A model generated the notes under the pieces. The model searched no databases. It was not told the origin of the DNA and saw only the letters and a list, made by a program, of their open reading frames with translations. From Deltaproteobacteria bacterium (GTDB taxonomy: Bacteria; Bdellovibrionota_B; Oligoflexia; Oligoflexales; CAIYRB01): a DNA stretch of 50,372 nt. The number at the start of each line of letters is the position of its first letter. Position 1 is the stretch's first letter. The stretch lies in the NCBI GenBank assembly GCA_016874735.1, contig VGTI01000026.1:1-50372 (forward strand), read 5' to 3'. Below are positions 35,700-42,812 of this stretch, piece by piece. A program made the position numbers and the translations under genes.

Positions 35700-36500
35700 A
35701 TGGATCCAAGAGGACGGGTGTGTTCCATGACAACGAGACTGAGCGGTAAAGCTAGCGACCAAATGCGCGACACGTGTCTGCGCGTGGGGCGTCCTGATGC
35801 CGGGTTCACGCTTGTCGGTGCCATCGTCATGGTGGCGTTTCTCGGTATCTTTGCTTATGTCATCTTTGCGGTCGTTAATAACTCGATGACTGTGCGACGC
35901 ATTGTCGAGACGAGCTCGACCTACAAGGATATCGACAGTGCATTCAAGGCCGCTCTGGTAGACGAGCTCCACCGGCTGCTCAACCCGACCACAGGGACCT
36001 GTGCTGGGGCACCACTGGTGATTTCTGGGCGTGATATAGGTGGCGACGGAGCTAAGTTCAAGACCAGTAATGCAATCAGTCCTTGGCCAGCAGGTGCGCC
36101 GGCGCGGCATGTAGCAGCAATACAACGGTGCCGGAACGGTTTTCGTTCACCGCCTAGCAAGGACGACTATTACTTCTGTGTCGAATTTAGCGGCATAAAC
36201 AATAATTCGTTTGCAGCAAATTCCTTTAATGGTGCTCCGAAGGCGATGGCAGAGGTTCGGGCCAGGGTCATTTCCCTAGATAACGGGCTACCACTTGGCA
36301 GTGTGCCCTCTGCACTGTGTCCCGCTGGCGCAGTGCCCAGTCCTTTCTGCTGCGCCTATAAAAATGGGTTCCATGCAGGCCTCGAAAAATCGGGTAGCTC
36401 TAGTTTAGAAATTCAGTACTCGCTTTATTGGCAGAGTCGCGGCAAACCAATCCTGTTTAAGAGTACTAATGGGTCTTTTTATGCACCCAGCTTCAACTAA
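35700..36500 (+). CDS. Prepilin-like protein lacking Glu5 (GspK-like tip pilin)
   Basis: 266 residues from the ATG at 35700; ATG 35727 is an alternative. A leader ending in DAG precedes a hydrophobic helix, GFTLVGAIVMVAFLGIFAYV, like the N-terminus of type II/IV pilins, with Phe1, Thr2, Leu3 but Gly instead of Glu at position 5. A missing Glu5 is known from GspK and similar tip pseudopilins. The body has several Cys pairs (CCAYKNG, LCPAG). The prepilin peptidase processing site would be AG|F. It overlaps the next gene by 32 bases, so both are translated together. Confidence 0.78.
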   Translation: MDPRGRVCSMTTRLSGKASDQMRDTCLRVGRPDAGFTLVGAIVMVAFLGIFAYVIFAVVNNSMTVRRIVETSSTYKDIDSAFKAALVDELHRLLNPTTGTCAGAPLVISGRDIGGDGAKFKTSNAISPWPAGAPARHVAAIQRCRNGFRSPPSKDDYYFCVEFSGINNNSFAANSFNGAPKAMAEVRARVISLDNGLPLGSVPSALCPAGAVPSPFCCAYKNGFHAGLEKSGSSSLEIQYSLYWQSRGKPILFKSTNGSFYAPSFN

Positions 36501-37164
36501 AGACATGCGCAATGTCGCACGCACGCGTGTCTTGGCTCATGACCAATGTGGTCTGTCTATTGTCGAGATCGTTATGGCACTGGCGATACTTGGCATCGTA
36601 GCTGCGGCACTCTCCCGCGTCACTCAGGCCGTGTCTGCTAGTGCGGCTAGTGAAGAGGCGCGCCGCGGGGCCAAGCAAGAGATGGCCCAGGCGATTGCGA
36701 TGTTTACGCGCGATGTCGATAAGCTTGATTACACCCAGCTAGGTAGCGTGGTCTGCAACGGCCTTACGTGCAAAATTCCAACCAAAGACGGCGTTATCAC
36801 CTACACGACAAGTTGTATTGCTAGTCCGCCGACTCTCAGCACAGTCGATCTGCTAGCGGTGGCACCGGGCCAGTGCTTGACGGTGGCAGCCTGTCCCAAG
36901 GGCAGGATGCCAGTGCTTGACATGGCGAGGCCTGGGGATCCCGTGCGCCGCTACCCTCTCAAAGCTGCCGGCGGTTCGGGTGGTGTCACCAAGAATGCCG
37001 TGGGCGCGATGGCTTGCTTTCGGCGTCCCAACTTGACGGAAATCGCTATAAACCTAACATATTTTTATTTACAGACGAGAGAATCACCAAAAATGATCAG
37101 ACATAGTCTGACATTGCCAACCATGGCGACACCTGGGATGCAAATTATTCGTGACCATTTATAA
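36469..37164 (+). CDS. Prepilin-like minor pilin (GspJ/PilW-like)
   Basis: 231 residues. The N-terminal leader ends QCG|LSIVEIVMALAILGIVAAAL, which has the canonical Gly at -1, a hydrophobic helix and Glu at position 5, so it is a good prepilin peptidase substrate. The rest has a Cys-rich globular domain (VVCNGLTCKIP, TSC...PGQC). It overlaps the preceding pilin gene by 32 bases; an ATG at 36481 is a second possible start. Together with the previous gene and the next two, this looks like a minor-pilin block, but no pilus motor is in the window. Confidence 0.8.
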   Translation: MGLFMHPASTKDMRNVARTRVLAHDQCGLSIVEIVMALAILGIVAAALSRVTQAVSASAASEEARRGAKQEMAQAIAMFTRDVDKLDYTQLGSVVCNGLTCKIPTKDGVITYTTSCIASPPTLSTVDLLAVAPGQCLTVAACPKGRMPVLDMARPGDPVRRYPLKAAGGSGGVTKNAVGAMACFRRPNLTEIAINLTYFYLQTRESPKMIRHSLTLPTMATPGMQIIRDHL

Positions 37165-37201
37165 CAGGTGGACTCCCACCTTAGTGACTTAGGAGCTACG
37201 C

Positions 37202-38212
37202 ATGAATGACAAACGGATTCAATACGCACTGCTTGCCGTGCTGATCCTTGTAGCAGTAGTGTTTTTTGCCAAGCGTAAGCAAAGGACCGCCAAACTTAAA
37301 GAAGGTCAAGCCACCGAGAAAGTGGTGGCGGCAGGTGGTTCCAAGAAAGGCGGTAAAGGGCCGGATGTAGTACCCGTAACGGGCCCTTCGACCGAGGCTG
37401 CGATTCAGCGTGATCGTAATCTCCATGCTGCCGGATTTGTAAAAGCACCACTGAAGATTGATGACAAAGGTGCCCATCTATCGTTTCATGTTCAGATTAA
37501 GAAGACCTGTGATTGGGGGGATTTGGATCTTATCCGCGGTGAGTTGGCGGCTAATAAAGGCGCTAAAATACTCTTATCGATTGAGTCAGTGAACCCGAAC
37601 GACAGTGATTTTACTCCAGTCACAAAAGTGATCTCGTTTGATCAGTTGGCAAGTGGATTCGACCACACCTTTACCTTTCCACCGGCTAAACAAACGCGAA
37701 GTCTTGGCCTCTTTCTTTGTAGCGATTTGGGTAGTAACTCGTGCGGTGGTAAAAATATCGAAGACTTTAACGTCGCCTATAAACAGTACGCAGCCTCGCA
37801 ATCCTATCCCCTTGGCGAAAAACCACCAGTTTACCGCCCACCGCTGCGTACGTATTTCTTCCAGCATGTCCTGTTGTCACCGGATTCTGCCCAGGTCCAA
37901 TTTGCCACCAAAATGGCTGATGAAGCTTACGATAAAGCAGAAGCCGTCTTGGTGGGTGACTTGGGGGAGGGCAGTGGTGCCAAAGCCATCGTGAGTCGCG
38001 TCAAGGAACTCAACCAAAAGATAACATCACTACCCGTGCAGGCTTCGGATAACGATCTCACCCTGGTGCTATCGATGGAGGACAAGCCTGCGGTTTGTCC
38101 GGAGAGTATTCCGCCACCAGGGCAAGAGCCACCAACACCGCCCGAAGGGATGGAGGGTGTGCAGCTCCCAGGTGAGAAATATTACCGACTTCAACCTAAG
38201 CAGCCCAAATAG
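37202..38212 (+). CDS. N-terminally anchored hypothetical protein in pilin cluster
   Basis: 336 residues. AGGAGCT precedes the ATG. An N-terminal membrane helix (IQYALLAVLILVAVVFFA, residues ~6-24) is followed by a basic, Gly-rich linker and a mixed alpha/beta domain, with Cys residues in KKTCDWGDLD and SNSCGGKN. A proline-rich stretch (PPPGQEPPTPPEG) and YYRLQPKQPK end the protein. No domain recognised. Position between minor pilins and the Hint protein suggests an accessory of the same fibre or secretion system. Confidence 0.7.
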   Translation: MNDKRIQYALLAVLILVAVVFFAKRKQRTAKLKEGQATEKVVAAGGSKKGGKGPDVVPVTGPSTEAAIQRDRNLHAAGFVKAPLKIDDKGAHLSFHVQIKKTCDWGDLDLIRGELAANKGAKILLSIESVNPNDSDFTPVTKVISFDQLASGFDHTFTFPPAKQTRSLGLFLCSDLGSNSCGGKNIEDFNVAYKQYAASQSYPLGEKPPVYRPPLRTYFFQHVLLSPDSAQVQFATKMADEAYDKAEAVLVGDLGEGSGAKAIVSRVKELNQKITSLPVQASDNDLTLVLSMEDKPAVCPESIPPPGQEPPTPPEGMEGVQLPGEKYYRLQPKQPK

Positions 38213-38337
38213 GTGTCGCAAGACGTGTTTTTATGTGGCTAATTACTCTATTGGTTTTTGATGTTTATAAAAAAATCTAAAGAAAATTCAGTCGAATACC
38301 GACCACCTAAATAAGGTCATTCCGAGGAGGGCGGGCG

Positions 38338-40293
38338 ATGAAAAACACGCGTTGGCCAGGACTTGGTCGTAACGAACGAGGCAGTGGACAAGTCATGTTC
38401 TCGCTTGCCCTCGTTGCGGTGGCAGGCGGTGTGGCCGCATATATGGCAACCAATGACGAGCGCAGTATACGGCAGGCACAGATTCAGGGGGCGCGAGACG
38501 ATTCGCAGGCGGCAAATAACACCAACGTCGCAGCACTTGCGGCACTGATGCGATTTCCGAGTGATATACCTCTCGCACAGCAGGTAGCCAGCAATCCTGA
38601 CTACCTTCCAAGTGTTTATCCCGATCCCTACGTCTACGGTAGTTCTCCAGGCAACGTACGCCTAGCATCGGTGAAAAAGTCCGGTCCTGGTGCAGGTGCA
38701 CGCTGGAGCACTAATGGGCAGGGCGTCATAGCTGTCCAAGGCTTAAATAGCGGAAGGGTGAGCGACAGTGCGCTTGACGCAGTGTTTCAGTCAGGTGGGG
38801 CACTCCAGGCTACGGCTAATCAGCATGCCGACAGTAAGATCAGCCTGACGAATATCACCCCTGACGGCAATAAAATTGCCAAAATACAGGTAGCCTCTCT
38901 TGGATACACTTCCGATAGTAAACAAAATATCTACCAAGATTCGATCCAAGCTGAGCTAACCGTACCTCTGCCTCCGCCTCCGGAGGTCAAAAGTGCGGGG
39001 CAGACTGCGGTCATAGGTTGGGGGCAAAAGGCCACCATTAGCTTCCAAGGCTTTGGCCTCATGACTAGTTTTGTCGCATATCCGCTGGGTAATGAAAACG
39101 CATCCTGCAGTCTGCCGATGCCTCCTGAAGCTAATAGTATCCGCAATTCAGCGAATGGCGGTTTTTCCCTTGGATCTTGCTCGTTCGCATTTCAAAATCC
39201 CGACACGCGGTCAGGAGATCCAAACCAGGGATTCATCACCATCCTGGTGAACGCTACCGGCCCGGGCGGGAACCATCAGGGTGTAGTGCAGATTCCCGCG
39301 TACAATCCACCACGCTGTGTCTTCAATCGGACTGACGACCGGATGAGCTCGACGCAGATCCTTACCATAGGCCTCACCACAACTGGTGCGGTTAAAGGTG
39401 CTCCACAGTTGAACCTACCGATTAATACGACCGCTGATGGCTTAGCGGTTGTAGATAACGCAGGCTGGCACCCCTCTGGCACCTGGACCAACACCTGGGC
39501 AGCGGGGAGTGGACAATGGGCGGGGCAATTTGCACCTGGGGTTAATTATGGCCAGGCAACGATTTATGGCCGTGTGACTGGACCAGCCCTGCAACCTGGT
39601 ACCTGGCAGGACTGCGATAACATAGAACGTGTCAATATCGACCGATCGGTTTGTTACGAGCATGGTGACCAGACTTATCGCTACATCAATCAGTGTTACA
39701 CAACTGCCGCCGGATATTCGGTCCTGTGGACTTCTACTGGTCCAAATTACAACAAGTGTCAGGGATACTACTGGGGGTGTCGTGGGTGCTGGTGCGGTAC
39801 CACGCATTTCCGCAACATGGGGTGTTTCACTCCCGAGACGCAGATTTTGTTAGCCGATGGATCGTCTAGGCGCATTGATGAGTTGCAGGCCGGAGACCTC
39901 ATCCATAATCCATTGACTGGACGCCCTGCTAAGCTCAAGGGCATGGTTAAAGGTCCTGAAAAAGAACCCATGATTGAGTTAGGTTATGACGCTAAGGTGG
40001 TCCACGTGACCACCAAGCACCCGATGCTGACTCTCAGTGGGGTCAAAGCAGCTATGGACCTTAAACTCGGTGAAGAGGTTCTCGGTGCAGATAAGAAATT
40101 CCATCGCCTGACCGATTTACGCCGCCTACCAGTGGACCCGGAGCAGCAGGTGTACAACTTCGTGATGGATGATGCTGACGACAGCCCGTCTCACCACGTC
40201 GTTGTTGCTGATGGTATTTTGACCGGAGATCTGCAGCTGCAGCAGGAGCTTGAAAAACGTATGAAAGCGCCCAGCAAGGTTGCAAGAGATTGA
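38338..40293 (+). CDS. Pilin-like surface protein with C-terminal Hint (intein-like) domain
   Basis: 651 residues. GAGGAGG lies 7-9 bases before the ATG. A pilin-like start, ERGSGQVMFSLALVAVAGGV, is followed by a long region with a beta-sandwich look (residues ~210-420). A Cys-rich segment (CRGCWCG among others, ~440-495) leads into a Hint domain that begins at Cys496 (GCFTPETQILLADGSSRR). Block B is TTKH (Thr558 to His561) and the last block is SHHVVVADGIL (His619-His620). Cys1, the TxxH and the late His pair are those needed for N-S acyl shift and cleavage; a terminal His-Asn is absent, as in Hedgehog and BIL-B types. So the protein could cleave off its C-terminus or transfer the ectodomain to a nucleophile. 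About 30 residues follow the Hint fold. A strong terminator comes after. Confidence 0.85.
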   Translation: MKNTRWPGLGRNERGSGQVMFSLALVAVAGGVAAYMATNDERSIRQAQIQGARDDSQAANNTNVAALAALMRFPSDIPLAQQVASNPDYLPSVYPDPYVYGSSPGNVRLASVKKSGPGAGARWSTNGQGVIAVQGLNSGRVSDSALDAVFQSGGALQATANQHADSKISLTNITPDGNKIAKIQVASLGYTSDSKQNIYQDSIQAELTVPLPPPPEVKSAGQTAVIGWGQKATISFQGFGLMTSFVAYPLGNENASCSLPMPPEANSIRNSANGGFSLGSCSFAFQNPDTRSGDPNQGFITILVNATGPGGNHQGVVQIPAYNPPRCVFNRTDDRMSSTQILTIGLTTTGAVKGAPQLNLPINTTADGLAVVDNAGWHPSGTWTNTWAAGSGQWAGQFAPGVNYGQATIYGRVTGPALQPGTWQDCDNIERVNIDRSVCYEHGDQTYRYINQCYTTAAGYSVLWTSTGPNYNKCQGYYWGCRGCWCGTTHFRNMGCFTPETQILLADGSSRRIDELQAGDLIHNPLTGRPAKLKGMVKGPEKEPMIELGYDAKVVHVTTKHPMLTLSGVKAAMDLKLGEEVLGADKKFHRLTDLRRLPVDPEQQVYNFVMDDADDSPSHHVVVADGILTGDLQLQQELEKRMKAPSKVARD

Positions 40294-40323
40294 TTGTATT
40301 AAATATTTTATATTATTAAATTG

Positions 40324-40360
40324 AAATGGTTTAGTTTGTTGACAAACTAAACCATTTTTA
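40324..40360 (+). terminator. Strong intrinsic terminator after the Hint gene
   Basis: A perfect 15-base stem (AAATGGTTTAGTTTG / CAAACTAAACCATTT) with a 4-base loop is followed by TTA after a run of T. It separates the pilin/Hint block from the following lipoproteins. Confidence 0.9.
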
Positions 40361-40416
40361 TAGATATTGCCCCCGCTTGTCATAGCCTTTAACTCGATTG
40401 GCTGGGGATAATATCG

Positions 40417-41634
40417 ATGAAATCGCAACATCTTGCGCTGGTGTCTGTAACATTATTGGCAGTCAGCTGCGGCAAAATCACCACCGAACGCGAGCGCAAT
40501 CAGGCTCGTGAGATCGATAATTTACGTGGCGAGTTAGCATCCAAAGACCTCATCCTTAAATCCGCTGCCGCGGATATAGCCGACAGCAAGAAGTCTATAG
40601 CTGAGCGCGATGAGGCAGCGGTCACCCTTAAAGCTGACGTGGCAAAAAAAGACGCAGAAGTCTCAGCCCTTAGCCATGCCGTCGCGGTTGAGTCGGCTAA
40701 GGTAGCGGCAGCTGATGCACGGATTGTTGACCTGCGACGCCGCTATACGCATCACGACGAAGAGGTCGCCAAACTAACTGCCGCCTTAGACGCCCGCAGT
40801 GCCGCTCTAGCAACCGCATCAGCCGATAATACGGCTTTGGCAGCTAAAGAGGCCGAACTCAGGAAGAATTTGGAGACCGCCAAGACGGAGCGCGAAAGTG
40901 CTGCCAACGATCTGAAAAAGGCTTTAGACGAGCGATCTGCGCTTGAGAAGACTCTGGCCGACGAAAAACGTACGGCGCTACGAGTTTTTCTGGAGAATGC
41001 GGCACCTGATTTGATGTTTGGTGCCGCCGGTGCGGACGTTGCCGAGATTTTTATCAAACGTGGCGATGACTGTGCTGTGATACTCGACTTCGATCCTGAC
41101 GTTATTATAGTCCGTGCCGCGGACCGTGGAGCGCTACCGAGTATCAACGGGTACACTATCCTGTCGATGCGGGTAGGTTACCGCAAGGTGGCAATATGTC
41201 GTGACGGCAACAAAATCGAAGCTCAGGTGGAACGAGGGTCACTTTACCGCGGTTTTGGTTACGGTAGCGAGCGGGTCTTGATAAGCGGCCGCGACAGCAG
41301 CACGTGCGACAAGGCATCGAGCGATACGAGAGCTTCCGCAATTCTCGGCGACTCCCGTTACGTCATGGTGAACCCATTCCGTGGCGAGATGGACGGAATC
41401 GAAACGATTGATTTACCTGCTAACGAGAAAGTTCTGAGGCTCCATATGGGTAGTGCTTTAGTAGGGGCGCCGACCTGTGCCGAAGCTGCGCGGGGAGCAA
41501 ACGGCGGAGATCTCGTCGCTGTGGCATGCGCTGTAGCGCTGGATAAACCTGTCGATGGTTTGAGCGTAACTAAGGGGTGCTTTTCGAAAAAATCGTTCCT
41601 CGGGCGGGAAAGCACAAAGTTCACCGCTGAGTAA
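40417..41634 (+). CDS. Coiled-coil lipoprotein of unknown function
   Basis: 405 residues. The signal ends in lipobox AVSC (LALVSVTLLAVSCGK). Residues ~25-190 are a long heptad-like, Ala/Glu/Lys-rich coiled coil (for example LKADVAKKDAEVSALSHAV). The C-terminal 200 residues are a separate, mixed domain with a few Cys (ICRDGNK, CDKASS, CAEAARG). GGGGATAA lies about 9 bases before the ATG. The coiled coil could span the periplasm. It follows the strong terminator and precedes the transglutaminase-like gene by 41 bases, so both may share a promoter in 40360-40416. Confidence 0.75.
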   Translation: MKSQHLALVSVTLLAVSCGKITTERERNQAREIDNLRGELASKDLILKSAAADIADSKKSIAERDEAAVTLKADVAKKDAEVSALSHAVAVESAKVAAADARIVDLRRRYTHHDEEVAKLTAALDARSAALATASADNTALAAKEAELRKNLETAKTERESAANDLKKALDERSALEKTLADEKRTALRVFLENAAPDLMFGAAGADVAEIFIKRGDDCAVILDFDPDVIIVRAADRGALPSINGYTILSMRVGYRKVAICRDGNKIEAQVERGSLYRGFGYGSERVLISGRDSSTCDKASSDTRASAILGDSRYVMVNPFRGEMDGIETIDLPANEKVLRLHMGSALVGAPTCAEAARGANGGDLVAVACAVALDKPVDGLSVTKGCFSKKSFLGRESTKFTAE

Positions 41635-41675
41635 TGTCACTGACATTTTGACTGAAGGTTGCAAGGACTACCTAG

Positions 41676-42812
41676 ATGAAAAAAATACTGATAGCTATGT
41701 TAGCAATCATGCCAGCATGTGGACCGAAATCCGGATCTCAGTTGGCCGAGGCTTGGAACAGTGACAACGATCCCACAGTCATTTCCGGTAACGAACTTGT
41801 TACCAAGTTCAGGAAATTGCCACTGTCTGGCGAAGTCAAGATGAAAGGGTGGAGTGACTCCTATTGGCCTACCTACACGGGTGGTATCAGTGTACGTTGG
41901 CTCACCTCTGATTATGGCTACGATTTGATTCCTGAGACTACAAAGAACGCACGCCTCGAAGTACTTTCACCGGCAGAGAAGTACGATGTGCTCCTTGGTC
42001 GCTTTGATTTTCCGACGGTAGCTTCGGAGCGAGCCCGCACTGAGATTATGAAGACCGTGCCAGGATCGCCTGATTACAAGGAGGGATTTGAGATCCCAGG
42101 ATGGTATGGGCTGTGCCACGGTTGGGCGCCAGCGTCGCAAAACTTTGCTGAGCCTCAAAAACCAGTCGAAGTAGCTTTGACCAACGACAACACGGTCGTG
42201 TTCTACCCCTCTGACATCAAAGCGCTACTCATTTACTATCAACAATATAATGGCAATCGGTCGACGAAGACGGTGTTTGCCGGTGAGCGCTGTAACGAGG
42301 AGTTCAAAAAGCTCGAGGAGCGACTCGCTGCCGGTGAGATCACCAGGGCCGAGGTCGATGCGGCCAAGGAAACTCCAGAATGTCGCGACGTCAATCCCGG
42401 AATGTTGCACCTGACGCTTGCCAATGAGATCGGTAAAAAGCGGTTAGGCCTAGTTATGGACCGGACCCGCGACAGCGAAGTGTGGAATCAGCCCATTAAC
42501 AGTTACCAAAGCCGGGTGGTCGAAGAGGTCGCTGCGGCGACTCCCGGCGCGGCCGAAGGCACGGTCAAGGAACTGCTTGTCGAGACGGCTGTTTACTACA
42601 CGGTGGAGACGGAGCCGAGCACTGATCCCATTGGTGCCGTTGAGCAGGGAGCCCTCTACAAGTACTGGCTCGAACTCAATAAAAACGGCGACGTGATCGG
42701 TGGTCGCTGGGTATCCGAGGCGCGTCCTGACTTCCTCTACCGCGAGACGGCGCCGGTATTCCAAGGGTACTTTAAACGCCTCGAGCAGATTTACAAAACC
42801 TCAATAGACTAA
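41676..42812 (+). CDS. Lipoprotein of the transglutaminase elicitor family
   Basis: 378 residues with a lipobox MPAC. The central motif GWYGLCHGWAPAS followed by VFYPSDIKALLIYYQQ, TVFAGERCNEEF, CRDVNPGMLHLTLANEIG and SEVWNQPINSYQ matches my knowledge of the transglutaminase elicitor family (the fold of oomycete M81/GP42 and its Vibrio homologues). The Cys in GLCHGWAP is the likely nucleophile, with the His of MLHLTLAN and the Asp of VMDRTRD as candidate triad members. If correct the enzyme would form isopeptide links between Gln and amine, or hydrolyse such bonds, at the cell surface. Location beside a pilin-like cluster makes substrate cross-linking an idea, not a fact. A bidirectional terminator follows. 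Confidence 0.72.
   Translation: MKKILIAMLAIMPACGPKSGSQLAEAWNSDNDPTVISGNELVTKFRKLPLSGEVKMKGWSDSYWPTYTGGISVRWLTSDYGYDLIPETTKNARLEVLSPAEKYDVLLGRFDFPTVASERARTEIMKTVPGSPDYKEGFEIPGWYGLCHGWAPASQNFAEPQKPVEVALTNDNTVVFYPSDIKALLIYYQQYNGNRSTKTVFAGERCNEEFKKLEERLAAGEITRAEVDAAKETPECRDVNPGMLHLTLANEIGKKRLGLVMDRTRDSEVWNQPINSYQSRVVEEVAAATPGAAEGTVKELLVETAVYYTVETEPSTDPIGAVEQGALYKYWLELNKNGDVIGGRWVSEARPDFLYRETAPVFQGYFKRLEQIYKTSID

Follow-up and report, generated by a model that had tools for sequence, protein, structure and literature searches.

Four adjacent genes in a 50,372-nucleotide stretch of DNA from an uncultured member of Oligoflexia (contig VGTI01000026.1 of NCBI GenBank assembly GCA_016874735.1; hereafter the window) probably form a minor-pilin tip cassette in which a PilX-like subunit carries an autoprocessing Hint domain. 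These genes, here named B (positions 35700-36500), C (36469-37164), D (37202-38212), and E (38338-40293), are followed by F (40417-41634) and G (41676-42812). All six open reading frames (ORFs) lie on the forward strand where an original prediction, made from the letters of the window, had placed them, with no further pilus genes among them. Searched against Pfam, the six proteins return only N_methyl (C), a marginal Vint/Hint match (E), and TGase_elicitor (G), to which NCBIfam adds only weak PRK10557 and GspJ matches, both on C. Judged by gene content across related genomes, B to E are a recurring, order-shuffled cassette of the class Oligoflexia. A type IV pilus tip set of this kind, carrying a Hint domain and recurring in relatives, appears to be undescribed.

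The minor pilins that make up the tip sets of type IV pili (T4P) and type II secretion systems (T2SS) carry a type III signal with Gly at position -1, and such a signal is found in B, C, and E. C (231 aa) scores 22.9 bits against Pfam N_methyl (PF07963; cut-off 21.2) and has weak PilW/GspJ-like matches (PRK10557, 4e-4; GspJ, 0.05). Its predicted processing site at Gly28 is conserved in 12 of 13 aligned homologues, the remaining one having Ala, and the glutamate at position +5 (Glu5, here E33) is present in all 13, as are four invariant Cys residues. B (266 aa) matches nothing in Pfam, and the Gly of its Gly35/Phe36 site (Gly codon 35802-35804) is kept in 16/16 aligned homologues, across which C101, C160, and W244 are invariant. 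Residue +5 of B is Gly, Ser, Ala, Asn, or Gln, and in none of the 16 is it Glu. B and C correspond to the two prepilin-like genes that had been predicted. In the N-terminal region of E (38380-38547), the predicted prepilin site Gly15/Ser16 keeps its -1 Gly in 29 of the 30 rows of the alignment (the other has a gap), and Glu5 is again absent (0/30). The tip of a type IV filament is capped by a subunit without Glu5 (PMC10191384), and PilX and GspK also lack this residue (PMC7541494). The same arrangement is seen here, with subunits of the cap type (B and E) alongside a Glu5 pilin (C).

The machinery needed to assemble such a filament is encoded elsewhere in the genome, which amounts to 4.65 Mb in 166 contigs. 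Alongside a prepilin peptidase (contig C6), its type IVa pilus (T4aP) genes comprise a PilB/PilT/PilC block (C4), a PilA-like pilin (C27), and a secretin with PilMNOP-like neighbours in a PilMNOPQ-type block (C15); a T2SS is encoded on C18. The secretin, motor ATPase, and prepilin peptidase had been reported as missing, which holds for the stretch from B to G and fails for the genome as a whole. Since these components are present elsewhere, their local absence provides no evidence for a stand-alone system, and a minor-pilin tip cassette is the more economical reading. A self-contained pilus system was rejected on the same grounds. Two further minor-pilin clusters occur in this genome, on C12 (L151:8023-10102) and C44 (L152:4721-9749), the former being a paralogue of the cassette with genes B', C', and D' that is cut by the contig end. 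Three minor-pilin clusters are likewise found in Myxococcus xanthus (PMC7541494).

E is a PilX/GspK-like pseudopilin of 651 aa that joins a prepilin-like N-terminus to a variable ectodomain and a C-terminal Hint domain. In its AlphaFold model, built with 30 homologues, a long helix spans residues 18-70. The ectodomain (residues 91-484; 38608-39789) is beta-rich and then passes into a Cys-rich segment of low confidence. Identity to genus relatives is 64-76% over residues 10-90 and 68-79% over the Hint, falling to 38-59% over residues 332-484. Conservation at both ends with variability between is the pattern that a constant base and a processing domain around a variable display region would show. 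In one relative (G004), E stands in tandem as two complete genes and a third fragment (L031:8601-12852). Contig breaks also recur within or beside E genes, suggesting that repeats drive variation in copy number.

The Hint of E (residues 496-645; 39823-40272) falls just short of the Pfam Vint cut-off (26.4 bits against 27). A family profile of 20 rows, however, matches solved bacterial intein-like (BIL) and intein domains (6tmm/6y75, E 1.1e-11; 2lwy, E 4.6e-11), and a Foldseek search with the E model reaches intein and BIL structures at E 1e-8, the best matches having TM scores of 0.7-0.88 over the Hint. On the strength of the profile and the predicted fold, the Hint is not a chance match. A pilin-like protein ending in a Hint, as originally proposed, is therefore supported, and B to E withstood the profile searches that could have exposed the Hint and pilin-like parts as spurious.

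Beyond the fold, E retains the other hallmarks of the HINT superfamily, an N-terminal nucleophilic Cys and the block-B TxxH motif (residues 558-561; Thr in 49/51 and His in 51/51 strong relatives). The block-F His (His620) is present in 51/51, and the Gly-Cys at Gly495/Cys496 (39820-39825) occurs in all 50 strong relatives that cover the site, followed by Phe in 46 of them. The C-terminal His-Asn of inteins is replaced by Gly-Asp in 50/50 (Gly630-Asp631 in E). In every covered row the next residue is Leu, Tyr, Phe, or Trp, so that the +1 Ser, Thr, or Cys of inteins is also lacking. E accordingly has neither the C-terminal His-Asn of an intein or A-type BIL nor an intein +1 nucleophile, and the intein or splicing reading was rejected, with Asn-driven C-terminal cleavage not expected either. 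Hint chemistry proceeds through an N-to-S acyl shift with cleavage at the N-terminal side of the Cys. Given this established chemistry, the conserved Gly-Cys and His residues predict cleavage between Gly495 and Cys496 without splicing, which would yield products with computed masses of 50.6 kDa (from Ser16) and 17.3 kDa. Beyond the Hint core come a conserved GD-L-x-x-Q tail and a helix (residues 632-643).

D combines an N-terminal transmembrane anchor, as had been predicted, with an extracytoplasmic domain; both the anchor and four invariant Cys residues are found across an alignment of 30 homologues. It belongs to no Pfam family and has no sequence match in the PDB, and a Foldseek search of the PDB with its AlphaFold model (pLDDT 83.5) gave no match, the best hit reaching only E 0.058. 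The linkage to the Hint is tighter from the side of D than from that of E. Of the D homologues that the phylum group contains, 38 in all, 33 adjoin a Hint-bearing E. Of the other five, one has as its neighbour an E truncated by a contig end, one adjoins an E that lacks the Hint (G032), one is the contig-end copy with B' and C' on C12, one has a short Hint gene a few kb away, and one is an orphan. In another lineage (RIFOXYA12_FULL_61_11; G246), four lipoprotein-like proteins pair an E-type Hint at the C-terminus with a D-like segment close to the N-terminus (L178:7131-9956, L179:2777-7372, L180:9498-12950). The D profile retrieves all four fusions, the reciprocal profile of the segment retrieves D proteins only, and hhalign aligns the two with 97% probability. 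These fusions tie D to the Hint independently of pilins. We take D to be a partner dedicated to E.

Recurrence was examined by scanning 84,980 species genomes with a strict degenerate pattern for the C-terminal Hint motif. The pattern matched 36 stretches, most of them from Oligoflexia or from metagenome-assembled genomes with cassette-type genes. The named relatives were almost all members of Oligoflexia, a class in the phylum Bdellovibrionota (Oligoflexales, Silvanigrella, Pseudobacteriovorax); stretches from Paenibacillus and Chitinophaga had clearly weaker Hint scores, and no Bdellovibrio genome was among the matches to this pattern. By profile, 37 of 58 genomes of the phylum group have a Hint match; the long, strongly matching proteins number approximately 50, and there is a second, shorter set. 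When the sample was widened to 336 genomes, just four from beyond the phylum group matched at 1e-10. For the 51 strong Hint ORFs, D lies within three genes in 30, B or C in 19, and at least one of the three in 38. B, C, D, and E recur together in Oligoflexia, and the independent scattering that would have spoken against the original grouping is not seen for these four. Their permuted orders include E-B-C-D (L035/L036), E-D-B-C (L041), E ahead of B, C, and D (L037), and B-D-E (L034). Outside the phylum group, one genome (G176) has a pair of prepilin genes ahead of one for a 995-aa pseudopilin-like protein whose Hint ends in the canonical His-Asn (L181:6133-10120). With lengths of 260-330 aa, the short Hint proteins constitute a second family in the class and often stand beside a small membrane protein (L119, L120, L123, L124, L126, L127).

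From these features a mode of action may be proposed in which B, C, D, and E would serve the type IV filament machinery of the organism as its tip cassette. After cleavage by the prepilin peptidase, C, which has Glu5, and B and E, which do not, would form a priming or tip complex, with E at the PilX/GspK-like cap position displaying its variable ectodomain. The C-terminal Hint would fold after export and carry out the N-to-S acyl shift at Gly495-Cys496. Resolution of the Gly495 thioester by water or another nucleophile would then separate a tip protein of ~51 kDa from a Hint of ~17 kDa. D, as the membrane-anchored partner of E, would perhaps act as a chaperone, docking subunit, or acceptor.

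The closest known systems are the minor-pilin/PilY1 tip clusters of T4aP (FimU-PilV-PilW-PilX-PilY1, as in M. xanthus; PMC7541494) and the GspHIJK set of the T2SS. Like the cassette, these are small clusters away from the core machinery, several of them to a genome, with cap-type subunits without Glu5 plus a Glu5 pilin. The cassette differs in its lack of PilY1, its two subunits without Glu5, its additional membrane protein D, and a large cap-like pilin with its own ectodomain and Hint. The modular minor pilins PilB and PilC of Streptococcus sanguinis also bear extra adhesive domains grafted on a pilin (PMC10191384), whereas the module grafted here ends in an autoprocessing Hint.

The C-type BILs of predatory bacteria, reportedly described by Dori-Bachash in 2009, are said to be BIL-like Hint domains that predatory Bdellovibrionota carry in secreted or membrane proteins, with Bd2400 as the studied example. 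Bd2400 has been listed among membrane proteins with a possible role in prey contact (PMC2797640). No pilin cassette was found described in the literature searched, and no pilin context is reported for the secreted Hint proteins presented as new in bacteria (Buerglin 2008, PMC2362128), of which the short Hint proteins of Oligoflexia may be members. More generally, nothing relevant on a Hint together with a pilin was found in the literature searched, which left out most subscription papers.

If correct, the tip-cassette reading joins two subjects, type IV pilus tips and Hint autoprocessing. The tip adhesins of type IV pili are usually PilY1 or grafted pilins, and the biological role of Hint autoprocessing in bacteria outside inteins is largely open. 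The cassette offers a lineage-restricted system, in a class of Bdellovibrionota, in which that role is accessible through a single exchange of Cys for Ala. New protein families of the B, D, and E types are defined as well, D being without a fold match in the PDB, and, in a phylum with predators among its members, the cassette is a candidate for variable surface recognition.

Several observations weigh against the tip-cassette reading. Neither Pfam nor NCBIfam yields a PilX, PilV, or GspK model match for B or E. Neither PilY1 nor the tip-set families PilX_N, T2SSK, T2SSI, and PilW are found among the six locus proteins, only N_methyl on C passing its cut-off, and residues 1-27 of the E model are of low confidence. 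Thirteen of the 51 strong Hint ORFs, some at contig ends, have no B, C, or D within three genes, and one family (f6) contains many D-E pairs without an adjoining prepilin gene. The E-type Hint is also borne by proteins whose N-terminus is not pilin-like (L038-L040 and the G246 lipoproteins), showing that it does not require a pilin. In one cassette with B, C, D, and E otherwise complete (G032; L175:10803-12176), E lacks the Hint and provides a natural control; the domain is therefore probably accessory to the tip and dispensable for tip assembly.

The f6 pairs, the lipoproteins, and the missing PilX or GspK match would suit a non-pilus alternative, in which E would be a secreted adhesin or surface protein anchored in the inner membrane, with a plain signal anchor at its N-terminus and a Hint that only releases or matures it. 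Such an E would not account for the conserved Gly at -1 or for the 19 loci with a prepilin-like B or C close by, fully covered genus loci included, and we regard this alternative as rather unlikely. The Hint could instead be a structural relic that no longer cleaves, as the Gly-Asp in place of His-Asn and the Hint-less E of one genome might indicate, but retention of the Cys and both His residues in 50-51 of 51 divergent proteins, along with high identity in the Hint where the middle of E diverges, makes this quite improbable. A further reading concerns the fate of the thioester. The Hog domain of Hedgehog proteins has the processing-site motif Gly-Cys-Phe, which is also found at the processing site of E, and both are C-terminal Hint domains behind a secreted domain that lack the C-terminal Asn. 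By analogy, a specific nucleophile, for example an amine or hydroxyl group supplied by D, an envelope lipid, or a target surface, would resolve the Gly495 thioester and leave the ectodomain covalently attached. The conserved Gly-Cys and following Phe, the loss of His-Asn, the conserved tail and helix beyond the Hint core, and the dedicated partner D are all in keeping with this. However, sequence identity to Hog is low, the ~20 residues after the Hint core of E hold no sterol- or other adduct-recognition region, no acceptor was identified, and plain hydrolysis is simpler, which together render covalent attachment unlikely. A bacterial counterpart of Hedgehog processing at the pilus tip, where the adhesin would be attached covalently for a single use and each paralogue would bring an exchangeable ectodomain of its own, is equally doubtful. 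Covalent attachment overlaps with the tip-cassette reading, so the likelihoods assigned to the best reading and its rivals are not exclusive.

Two remaining explanations turn on what follows the Hint of E. Polymorphic toxins use Hint domains to release a C-terminal toxin, and E might by this precedent be a polymorphic-toxin or contact-dependent delivery protein. The Hint is, however, the last domain of E, with ~6-20 residues after it and no toxin or immunity gene downstream; toxin delivery, which calls for a toxin after the Hint, is scarcely credible and was rejected. Beyond E lies an intrinsic-terminator-like hairpin with a 16-bp stem and a U run (40323-40358, forward strand), which confirms the predicted terminator and would mark the 3' end of the B-E unit (-18.6 kcal/mol, z -6.3; 0/200 shuffles as stable). 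The two genes behind it are as originally described. F encodes a coiled-coil, lipoprotein-like protein for which no family was found, and G a lipoprotein-like putative transglutaminase well above the cut-off for TGase_elicitor (PF16683; 135.4 bits against 25, 2.7e-39). In the original model, F and the transglutaminase G cross-link a fibre made by B to E, and the F-G pair does adjoin the cassette in two species of the genus. F is present in five genomes, always beside a G homologue, and the pair adjoins E in only two of these (G000, G004), lying away from it in G002, G030, and G022. Transglutaminases of the G type occur in 51 of 58 phylum-group genomes, irrespective of whether these have the cassette. 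The strong terminator, the F-G pairs apart from E, and the wide occurrence of G led to F and G being dropped from the unit, and cross-linking by them is very improbable. Hence, of the surface fibre or adhesin originally envisaged as self-cleaved or cross-linked, a self-cleaving tip fits the anatomy of the locus, while the functional link across the terminator and the grouping of F and G with B to E do not survive the co-occurrence data.

F and G are observed as a conserved two-gene module of their own in the five genomes (40417-42812 in the window; L171, L172, L173). PF16683, an oomycete-elicitor family, is strongly expanded in the class, with up to 13 matches per genome.

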